Of a stretch of DNA of 64,000 bases, positions 6,923 through 23,972 are shown piece by piece. The position numbers and the translations under genes are program-made. Position 1 is the stretch's first letter. The number at the start of each line of letters is the position of its first letter. The stretch comes from Bdellovibrionales bacterium (GTDB lineage: Bacteria > Bdellovibrionota > UBA1018 > CAIMNF01): contig CANNBJ010000003.1 of the NCBI GenBank assembly GCA_947502835.1, forward strand, positions 124,001-188,000. The letters run 5' to 3'. The notes below the pieces were generated by a model. The model was not told where the DNA came from, did no database searches, and was given only the letters and a program-made list of their open reading frames with translations.

Positions 6923-8195
6923 CGAATGCCTCCAGGATCTTGATGAAGTAGGGTCCCTTGTACATGGTCTTTGCAATCTTCGAAAACTCCCGGAACGTCC
7001 ATTCGGGGGTCTCATAGACGTAATCCACAAAGGAGTGGCAGACCATGAACAGACAAGAGAGGGGGTAGAGTTGCTTGAAGTCGACACCTTCGGGGAAGCC
7101 CCGCCCATCCGGACGTTCCTTTTGTTGGATCAGGATTCTCTCGACATCGATCGAGTCTTCGGTCGAATCACGGGCCATGAGCGAGCTGTAGATCGGCCCC
7201 TCCAGAAAAATCTTGCACTCCTCCGAAGTGAGGGTCGACTTCATGTCCTCGAACTCGGGAAGACCCCGGATTCGGGCGAGTTTTGGATTCTCAAAATAAC
7301 GGATGTCGTGCAGATAGGCGGAGAGAATGAGTTTGTCGAGGGTCTTCTTCGTGACCCAGCCCAGGATCCGGCCAAGAGAGCACGAGACATAGCAAAGGAG
7401 ATCGATATGGGTTCGAAGATAATTGCCCCCGCGGTCCACTTTCAAGGTTTTCATCGCAGTTTGGAGTTTCGGAAGCTTCTCCAATCGTTCGATTGTGTCC
7501 TGCATGTTGCTCTGAACGGTTTCGAGATACTCCTGGTCTTGAAAAAACTTTTCCGGATCGACGCGCTCAAAGACGGGAGTCCGGATGAATTCGAGAAACC
7601 CGGCCTCCGGGATCTCGGTCTCAAGCCTGAGTGCAATCGAGTATTCGTCGCTTCGGATGATGTGGCATTCAAGGTCCGTCGGGGCATCTCCGAGCCGCTT
7701 CAGTCGCAGCGAAGGAGATGCGTGGATCCGTACTTTGGTTTCGGAATCGCTTTCCAGTTTGAGGCCTGAGCGTGAAGCATTGATCACCCTGAAGTTCACT
7801 TCCGCGCCAAGAATCTCAAGGGTTGCGGTTTTGCGGTCCTCCTTCGCAAAGTGAATCCGGCGGTGCGAGCGCTTTTCCTCAAGGATCATTTCCTCCGAGG
7901 TTTGCAGGGTGAGAAGATTGTCTTTGAGGGTGAGGATCCGGCACTTGGCCACTCCCGAGGTTCCGGAGAACCTCACAAACACGGAGTCAAGATCGGAGAG
8001 TGCGGCGGGCACAATCTTCAATTCCAGCACGAGCAGGTCCTGATCCTCATCGTACCGGTGGAGCGTTCCCGTGAAGAGAATCCGCCGTTCGTCCGGATGG
8101 ATCCACAAGGCAAGCTCCGACTTGGGAGGCACGCTTCTCAGCATTGCCTTGATCTCACGGAGTTTCCGGGTCAGACGGAGCTTTGAGTCCCTCAT
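6909..8195 (-). CDS. PilZ domain protein with a degenerate HD-GYP domain
   Basis: Residues about 100-215 form a PilZ domain: R109-x3-R113 in EKRSHRRIHF and N-A-S-R-S-G at 139-144 are the two c-di-GMP contact motifs. Residues about 220-428 resemble an HD-GYP phosphodiesterase: YLHDIRYF holds the HD pair and ERPDGRGFPEG the GYP loop. The His-His that normally precede the loop are replaced by ILIQQK, and the IGK after HD is missing, so metal binding and c-di-GMP hydrolysis are doubtful. I infer a c-di-GMP sensor that signals through a pseudo-enzyme module. Its ends overlap both neighbours (4 bp with 8192-8698, 14 bp with the RsmI-like gene), a compact three-gene operon. Confidence 0.75.
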   Translation of the reverse strand: MRDSKLRLTRKLREIKAMLRSVPPKSELALWIHPDERRILFTGTLHRYDEDQDLLVLELKIVPAALSDLDSVFVRFSGTSGVAKCRILTLKDNLLTLQTSEEMILEEKRSHRRIHFAKEDRKTATLEILGAEVNFRVINASRSGLKLESDSETKVRIHASPSLRLKRLGDAPTDLECHIIRSDEYSIALRLETEIPEAGFLEFIRTPVFERVDPEKFFQDQEYLETVQSNMQDTIERLEKLPKLQTAMKTLKVDRGGNYLRTHIDLLCYVSCSLGRILGWVTKKTLDKLILSAYLHDIRYFENPKLARIRGLPEFEDMKSTLTSEECKIFLEGPIYSSLMARDSTEDSIDVERILIQQKERPDGRGFPEGVDFKQLYPLSCLFMVCHSFVDYVYETPEWTFREFSKIAKTMYKGPYFIKILEAFDELS

Positions 8196-23100: not shown

Positions 23101-23352
23101 ATGAAAGCACTCTTTTTCGCTGCGGCCTTGTTTCTATCCTTTGGTATCGATTCTTTTGCAAAACCCGGATGTCCCAAGGGGGTTCAGAATACTGTGTGCG
23201 GAACTCGTTGTGATGGATCGCCGGTGGGTGGCACCATGCAACCCTGTGCGAGTGGATGCTGTTGCAAACCCGCGGTGCCTTGTCCGACCACTCAGCGCGA
23301 CTCACCCGTGGATGAGAATCACGAACTCTTGGCGCAGTTAGGGATCGAGTAG
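23101..23352 (+). CDS. small exported Cys-rich protein
   Basis: 83 residues with a clear signal peptide (MKALFFAAALFLSFGIDSFA) and an AGAGG site 7 bp before ATG. The 63-residue mature part contains eight Cys, including a CCC run (SGCCCKP), so it is probably a compact disulphide-rich secreted peptide. No family recognised. Its stop codon abuts the palindromic array beside tRNA-Ser. Confidence 0.6.
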   Translation: MKALFFAAALFLSFGIDSFAKPGCPKGVQNTVCGTRCDGSPVGGTMQPCASGCCCKPAVPCPTTQRDSPVDENHELLAQLGIE

Positions 23353-23466
23353 GCTCGCGTTGCTCGCGCGAGGGTCCTCACCCACCCCCTTCCTACAAAT
23401 AATTTTCCCCTTGCGCACGAACCCACGAGGAAGGTTCCCGTGACTTCATCATCTCGGCCCAGCGCC

Positions 23467-23589
23467 TCCATTCTTTTAAATCCCTTTTTAGGAAATCGAG
23501 CGAGGCAAGCGAGGGAGTCGTACGCAAAGGTACGTCGGACTGAGCGCGTCCGAAGGGAGATGATGTAAAAAGGGATTTAAAAGAATGGA
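23467..23589. repeat. perfect 24-bp inverted repeat, module A
   Basis: Arms at 23467-23490 and 23566-23589 are exact reverse complements over 24 bp. The 75-nt loop holds a nested hairpin (CGTAC/GTACG) and a second short stem (GGAC/GTCC). The right arm runs directly into a copy of the tRNA-Ser 3' end. Confidence 0.85.
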
Positions 23590-23605
23590 GGAGGGGATGG
23601 GATTC
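23584..23605. repeat. att-like direct repeat of the tRNA-Ser 3' end
   Basis: These 22 bp are identical to 23881-23902, which covers the 3' end of tRNA-Ser from the T loop to the CCA. Many tyrosine-integrase elements leave exactly this part of a tRNA gene as their repeat. The enclosed interval is under 300 bp and has no integrase gene. Confidence 0.7.
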
Positions 23606-23761
23606 ACCTCGCGCCTCCTGCTCTCGGCCCTGCGGGCAACCTTTGTTCGCTTTCGCTCTCTGCGGTTGTGCAAAAATGCGATCCGCGCATTTTTGTCGAA
23701 CCCACGTGAGCTCGCGTTGCTCGCGCGTGAGTTCTCACCCACCCCTTCCTCAAGAAGGTTT

Positions 23762-23877
23762 CCCCTCGAATTTTCCATTTAAGGAAGGCGAACGAGGGGA
23801 AGCGAGCGCAGGTGTATAAGTGATACTCCGAGCGAGTGAGCCGAAATGAGACGATCTTAAATGGAAAATGCGAGAGG
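23762..23877. repeat. inverted repeat, module B
   Basis: A 14-bp perfect core (ATTTTCCATTTAAG at 23770-23783 against 23856-23869), extended outward with two mismatches to 23762 and 23877. The 72-nt loop is homologous to the loop of module A but its nested hairpin uses a different stem (GTAT/ATAC). It lies just downstream of the tRNA in the direction of tRNA transcription. Confidence 0.8.
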
Positions 23878-23882
23878 GAAAA

Positions 23883-23972
23883 TGGAGGAGGGGATGGGAT
23901 TCGAACCCACGAAAGGTGTGACCCTTTACACGCTTTCCAAGCGTGCTCCTTCAACCACTCGGACACCCCTCC
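23883..23972 (-). tRNA. tRNA-Ser, anticodon GGA
   Basis: Read on the minus strand: acceptor GGAGGGG pairs with CCCCTCC, D stem TCC/GGA, anticodon stem CACGC/GCGTG with loop TTGGAAA (GGA, reading UCC/UCU), a long variable arm as expected for serine, and T arm GTGGG-TTCGAAT-CCCAT. CCA is encoded (23883-23885). The base before CCA reads U, whereas bacterial serine tRNAs usually carry G73, which is unusual. Confidence 0.95.

Follow-up and report, generated by a model that had tools for sequence, protein, structure and literature searches.

Folded repeat arrays behind Bdellovibrio-like tRNAs look like an undescribed family of tRNA-end-targeting elements

Introduction

The 3′ ends of tRNA genes are favourite landing sites of mobile DNA. 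Behind tRNA-Ser(GGA) in the genome of a Bdellovibrionales bacterium, a palindromic array repeats the 3′ end of the gene in front of it, which raises the question of what such an array is and how it came to be there. The locus lies in a stretch of 64,000 nucleotides, here called the window (GenBank assembly GCA_947502835.1, contig CANNBJ010000003.1, positions 124,001 to 188,000 of the forward strand), and positions are counted from the first base of that stretch. The genus is known from environmental, partly freshwater, metagenome assemblies. A sequence-only reading of the window had proposed a non-autonomous element that duplicates or targets the tRNA-Ser end, or else a family of structured RNAs transcribed with the tRNA. 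No description of such arrays was found in the literature; the one paper on palindromes 3′ of tRNA genes (PMC5217627) deals with a short motif in Methanopyrus. The comparisons reported below favour, with a probability of about 0.6, the reading that the array consists of stacked non-autonomous elements with a highly structured fold, which insert at tRNA and tmRNA 3′ ends.

Results

Structure of the array behind tRNA-Ser(GGA)

The host gene, tRNA-Ser(GGA), occupies positions 23883–23972 of the minus strand. The array has the orientation of the tRNA, and all of the features described here lie on the minus strand of the window. In this orientation a first hairpin (H1 copy B) comes after the CCA. 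Next stand an inverted copy of the tRNA end (X′) and the 5′ half of a copied T arm, which a 92-nt insert separates from a direct copy of the tRNA end (X′′). A second hairpin (H1 copy A) and remnants close the array. The segment that is copied, termed X, is the 3′ part of the tRNA from T loop to CCA (about 23883–23902). Directly past the CCA, H1-B (23757–23883) is a long hairpin with a structured loop of 72 nt, the arms of which (23759–23783 and 23856–23880) are complementary at 88% of 25 positions. H1-A (23465–23591), after X′′, has arms (23465–23490 and 23566–23591) complementary at 26/26 positions and a loop of 75 nt. These are the two long-inverted-repeat modules of the sequence-only reading, whose measurements are borne out. 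It took their arms to differ completely; both modules, however, belong to a single alignable family of 14 members and the arms are therefore not unrelated. Both fold better than dinucleotide shuffles (z = −8.9 for module A and −5.4 for module B; 0/200 shuffles were as good).

Between the two hairpins lie the copies of the tRNA end. X′, TTGAGGAAGGGGTGGGTGAGAACTCACG (23726–23753), repeats the tRNA-Ser 3′ end imperfectly and in inverted orientation; it was absent from the earlier account. The 18-mer said to be shared by the modules is real and forms the core of a 36-nt repeat, of which one copy (23710–23745) comprises the end of X′ and the start of the second unit and the other lies at 23353–23388 (92% identity). 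The copied T arm is split, as the earlier reading had it: its 5′ half, CACGTGGGTTCG, lies at 23697–23708, where GTGGGTTCG ends at 23697, and AATCCC starts, in the tRNA sense, at 23604. The structured insert of about 92 nt that interrupts the copied T loop (23605–23696), termed TLI, falls within a match to covariance model R3 at 23598–23703. X′′, AATCCCATCCCCTCCTCCA plus flank (23584–23605), takes in the T-arm 3′ half, the acceptor strand and CCA, and is an exact 22-bp match to 23881–23902. Beyond H1-A are a remnant T-arm 5′ half from a further unit, CCTCGTGGGTTCGTGCGCAAGG (23409–23430), and a distal remnant of X′ with the second-unit start (23353–23388), which begins one base past the stop codon of the ORF at 23101–23352. 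tRNA-Ser in the window thus bears H1-B, X′, TLI and X′′, beyond which lie a further H1 (copy A) and the remnants of older units. Only the tRNA itself was matched by Rfam in the window, and when four loci were scanned permissively no further family reached its gathering score.

Three structured families with fixed places

Reading of the 3′ flanks of all 40 tRNAs in the window genome revealed a usual layout, X–slot1–X′–core–X′′. Slot1 holds H1, another long hairpin or a hairpin resembling an intrinsic terminator; X′ is an imperfect inverted copy of X and X′′ a direct one. The core is either H2, a structure of five helices closed by X′ and X′′, or TLI, the insert that splits the copied T arm. The two hairpins in the window belong to the H1 family and its insert, put earlier at 91 bp, to TLI. 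The element is structured, as had been supposed, but as three families (H1, H2 and TLI; covariance models R2, R1 and R3, respectively), each with its fixed place in the layout, rather than as one palindrome. Units are about 120–400 bp in size and most are without a gene, a size that leaves no room for an integrase of their own.

A DNA search of the window genome placed the H1 hairpin also behind Leu-TAG, Val-TAC, His and Arg-TCT. Arrays follow at least 15 tRNAs and also tmRNA, and the proposed specificity for tRNA-Ser was therefore wrong, while the idea of a non-autonomous element that duplicates or targets tRNA ends is supported. Copies of H2, H1 and TLI lie 3′ of tmRNA at two loci (L238:2155-3128 and L244:1290-2001). 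One H1 copy in another genome (G005, L213:1501-1628), about 300 nt from the tmRNA 3′ end, is apparently inside or near the tmRNA gene and not behind it. In genome G000, tRNA-Ser(CGA) and tRNA-Ser(GCT) have a near-identical terminator hairpin right after the CCA (L003:1591-1640 and L064), as if trailers may have been copied between tRNA loci.

Linkage to tRNA 3′ ends

In the window genome, all 24 matches to R1–R3 lie downstream of a tRNA or tmRNA, in sense and no more than 500 nt from its 3′ end (24/24; binomial p ~1e-51); some of these copies had trained the models, in which tRNA distance played no part. Across the phylum, a tRNA or tmRNA in sense lies within 900 nt of 74 of the 88 H2 matches (tmRNA in two of the 74), and three further matches are at contig edges. 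Compared with its own tRNA, X′′ had ≤1 mismatch in 15 for 47/74 of these H2 matches, against 0/740 foreign comparisons, and X′ had ≤4 mismatches for 26/74, against 7/740. A model-free search within the genus for a direct copy of the tRNA's own 3′ end (≤1 mismatch in 16) found 23/150 in 3′ flanks and 1/149 in 5′ flanks, with 8/750 in foreign comparisons, which include tRNAs whose ends are common to isoacceptors. X′′ matches the tRNA in front of it, and X′ does so less closely. No simple insertion accounts for an X′ that is fitted to each tRNA.

Could such repeats arise with no mobile element at all, through template switching or slippage of replication at tRNA genes that makes and corrects repeats and leaves compensated arms as by-products? 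X–X′–X′′ with perfect arms is the product to be expected, and tandem units and truncated tails do occur, but the cores behind different tRNAs, and in different families, are homologous rather than derived from local sequence, and they keep branched structures with conserved unpaired bases. This origin is considered very unlikely.

Distribution

Searches of relatives with the covariance models found further copies beside tRNA genes. H2 is present in 32/369 genomes and 23/182 genera of the phylum and TLI in 21/55 genomes of the order, while H1 matches are nearly confined to the genus; hairpins that resemble H1 by eye follow tRNAs in other families. A strict H2 pattern occurred in only five contigs among the genomes of 84,980 species, behind a tRNA in 5/5 cases. 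The filters were strict and these counts are therefore lower bounds, from mostly draft metagenome assemblies and with rough E-values. No copies were found in the viral, phage and plasmid collections IMG/VR, INPHARED and PLSDB.

Two near-identical H2 copies in genome G012 (L182 and L194) are on separate contigs with no nearby tRNA. In genome G029 (L318-L332) TLI-like elements are dispersed in the manner of REP sequences: 10 of the 15 loci fetched had no tRNA detected nearby, and the borders of the copies away from tRNAs are mostly without tRNA sequence. The TLI module can therefore live away from tRNAs.

Filled and empty sites

Comparison of orthologous loci bears on how the arrays arose. At Arg-TCT, the empty site of one genome (G001) aligns over about 1 kb with the filled site of another (G006) except for a 124-bp gap, and the alignment re-enters at X′′, so that X′′ and its flank are the original tRNA end. 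Filled and empty orthologues with larger units were likewise found at Trp, Gly-TCC (within a tRNA cluster) and Met, and filled loci have the T-loop-to-CCA segment duplicated. With empty sites at four tRNAs, the evidence favours an insertion that duplicates the tRNA end, and the comparison of loci points to probable mobility. The set of array-bearing tRNAs varies among close relatives and tandem units stand behind Ser-GCT and Pro-GGG. Modules are exchanged between relatives: at Leu-CAG, genomes G008 and G011 share one and the same H2 but have unrelated slot1 hairpins, and at Asp a common terminator and X′ are followed by H2 in G008 and by TLI in G011. At tRNA sites TLI sits between GTTC and AATC, with the local tRNA's T stem on both sides; it splits the T arm cleanly 3′ of GTTC, yet whole arrays duplicate the tRNA end.

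In genome G036 (L336:1099-1250; contig G036:C57) a TLI lies inside the T loop of a tRNA-fMet-like sequence with a CAT anticodon and one acceptor mismatch, at which ARAGORN found no tRNA; this may be either a pseudogene or an interrupted initiator tRNA.

The T-loop-to-CCA direct repeat is the classic target of tyrosine recombinases, and X′′ might be the attR of a decayed prophage or integrative element for which the tRNA end served as attB, i.e. the arrays might be scars of tRNA-integrating islands. One locus has ORFs resembling a tyrosine recombinase and AbiEi/AbiEii (names by eye) beside H1–X′–H2. Such an origin leaves unexplained the inverted X′, the conserved H1, H2 and TLI structures and the identical cores behind different tRNAs, and we regard it as improbable. 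No integrase of its own was found inside the element, and a recombinase-like ORF adjoins one array only (L237). That region, in genome G002, has two H1–X′–H2 copies (L237:3459-3583 and 7841-7965) with a common Leu-type X′ that flank about 4 kb of genes, and the loop of one of its H1 copies is inverted relative to its own flanks.

Toxin-antitoxin-like ORFs, named by eye, adjoin arrays at L275:2283-3028, L098:225-933 and L237:8113-10527; the types seen beside arrays are HEPN/nucleotidyltransferase-like, RelE-like with an HTH, and AbiEi/AbiEii-like with a tyrosine-recombinase-like ORF. That some units hold genes, including ORFs of this kind, and that tandem units end in a folded site would suit integron-like cassette arrays in which the tRNA end is attI and H2 an attC-like site. 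This is scarcely credible, given that none of the 32 H2-positive genomes had an integron integrase (IntI, TIGR02249) over the cut-off, that the branched five-helix fold of H2 is unlike attC and that most units are gene-free.

A fold constrained on one strand

The ten H2 copies first examined all fold alone into essentially one five-helix plan (10/10). Covariation was 0.575 for H2 (shuffles 0.165, slid partners ≤0.10) and 0.608 for TLI (shuffles 0.160), both from alignments fitted to their own models, which favours structure in the scores; the first H2 alignment, built without a model, had 23/38 pairs changed on both sides. H1, in a sequence-only alignment, gave 0.534 against 0.221 for shuffles, which bears out the compensated change that the sequence-only reading saw in the arms and the nested hairpin. 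That reading was to fall if there were no further copies or if there was no covariation; both were looked for and both are present. Compensated arms could stem partly from palindrome correction at replication, besides selection.

On the tRNA-sense strand of H2, G·T outnumbers A·C by 216:51 and G·A mismatches outnumber T·C by 227:26; in TLI the G·T to A·C ratio is 77:8, or 27:8 without one near-invariant G·T pair. This strand-specific excess indicates that the fold belongs to one single strand. H2 also keeps conserved unpaired bases and a branched structure. The structure is constrained on the tRNA-sense strand, and RNA and folded single-stranded DNA fit equally. Three assignments to known motifs were rejected: box C/D RNA for the tandem-GA motif and hammerhead for P4, by eye, with variants replacing the boxes needed, and CsrA sites for the GGA-loop hairpins (CAGGATG), of which GTGATG and CGATG variants are equally common.

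The strongest rival to insertion is that the arrays encode functional structured RNAs, a family that tRNA enzymes could process, that could act in trans or regulate its tRNA, and that would spread by duplication. The strand-specific G-U and tandem G-A signals, the conserved unpaired bases and the strong covariation across the phylum are what such an RNA would leave, and, as in a tRNA acceptor minihelix, CCA terminates the X′/X′′ stem. Sequence context gives a divided picture of possible transcription: in the operon contexts of Trp and Gly-TCC there is no obvious T-tailed terminator between tRNA and H2, so that co-transcription with the tRNA would follow, whereas many H2 copies lie just past a hairpin resembling an intrinsic terminator, 50–70 nt from the tRNA, a form found phylum-wide that argues against simple co-transcription for those copies. 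Most genomes of the phylum, moreover, have no H2 match, the tRNAs that bear arrays differ between close relatives and folded single-stranded DNA would yield much the same strand bias. We judge a functional RNA to be unlikely, though it is the alternative to be taken most seriously.

Search for a mobilising enzyme

No mobilising enzyme was found among the reverse transcriptase, Y1 transposase and integron integrase genes searched for. A reverse transcriptase (PF00078) is encoded in 7/12 genomes of the genus, a presence that disagrees with that of H2; no H2 and one weak TLI match (L163) were found beside these genes. A Y1 transposase is present in 8/12; the match in the window genome is below the cut-off, none was found in the element-carrying G001, G009 and G006, and neither H2 nor TLI lies beside the Y1 loci. 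Both enzymes were rejected as mobilising partners, since their presence does not track H2 or TLI and their genes are without adjacent elements save the one weak TLI.

Discussion

Elements inserted at tRNA and tmRNA 3′ ends, the reading preferred here, would be targeted to the T loop, which has the sequence GTTCRANNC common to almost all tRNAs, and the duplicated end would preserve tRNA function. Recognition of the fold is probably in single-stranded form, in which the X′/X′′ stem would mimic the duplex of a tRNA end. A recombinase or transposase would be supplied in trans, the leading guesses being an HUH/Y1-type enzyme or a tyrosine recombinase; host-wide enzymes such as XerC/D or general repair could also serve and would leave no correlation of presence. 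Later template switching between inverted copies may adapt X′ to the tRNA at hand and maintain arm pairing. A bolder and more tentative proposal is a new class of element, a folded single strand with a tRNA-specific complementary arm, retargeted by copying the 3′ end of its target into its own closing stem, such that each copy would be a made-to-measure mimic of the tRNA end that it follows.

Several known systems share features with the arrays. The Rtt repeats of E. coli tyrT are tandem units downstream of a tRNA, each of which holds a copy of the tRNA 3′ end. They resemble the arrays in both respects, but Rtt is one locus, whereas the arrays stand behind tmRNA and a wide range of tRNAs, copy the end in both orientations and have three covarying structured families in common between loci; Rfam scans of the window and four loci gave no match to the Rtt family. 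REP/BIME sequences, with their Y1 enzyme RAYT, are likewise small, folded, strand-polar non-coding repeats, and TLI is REP-like in its dispersal in G029 and its entry 3′ of a short fixed motif, GTTC. In most genomes, by contrast, the arrays are confined to tRNA and tmRNA ends, and they have larger branched folds and no RAYT linkage that we could find. With prophages, ICEs and islands that use attB sites of tyrosine recombinases the arrays share the T-loop-to-CCA direct repeat, present at both borders, and probably the kept tRNA function, but their units are only about 120–400 bp and mostly gene-free, and each has an inverted copy that suits its tRNA. Integron attC sites are also folded and stand in tandem cassette arrays; they differ in their integrase, in their fold and in the cassette gene that the arrays usually do not have. 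Rickettsia palindromic elements and mitochondrial double-hairpin elements are mobile folded hairpins that enter conserved genes, and the likeness to the arrays lies in that mobility and folding. We know of no fitting of their arms to the target gene.

Across many genera of a single phylum, the elements appear to exploit the T loop that nearly all tRNAs and tmRNA have in common, and to bear copies of whichever end they enter. If so, this would be a general, many-target use of tRNA genes, unlike the rule of one integrase and one tRNA, and a system in which base-pairing arms visibly change with the target. The question can be put to a direct test with the covariance models, the empty sites and the tandem units.
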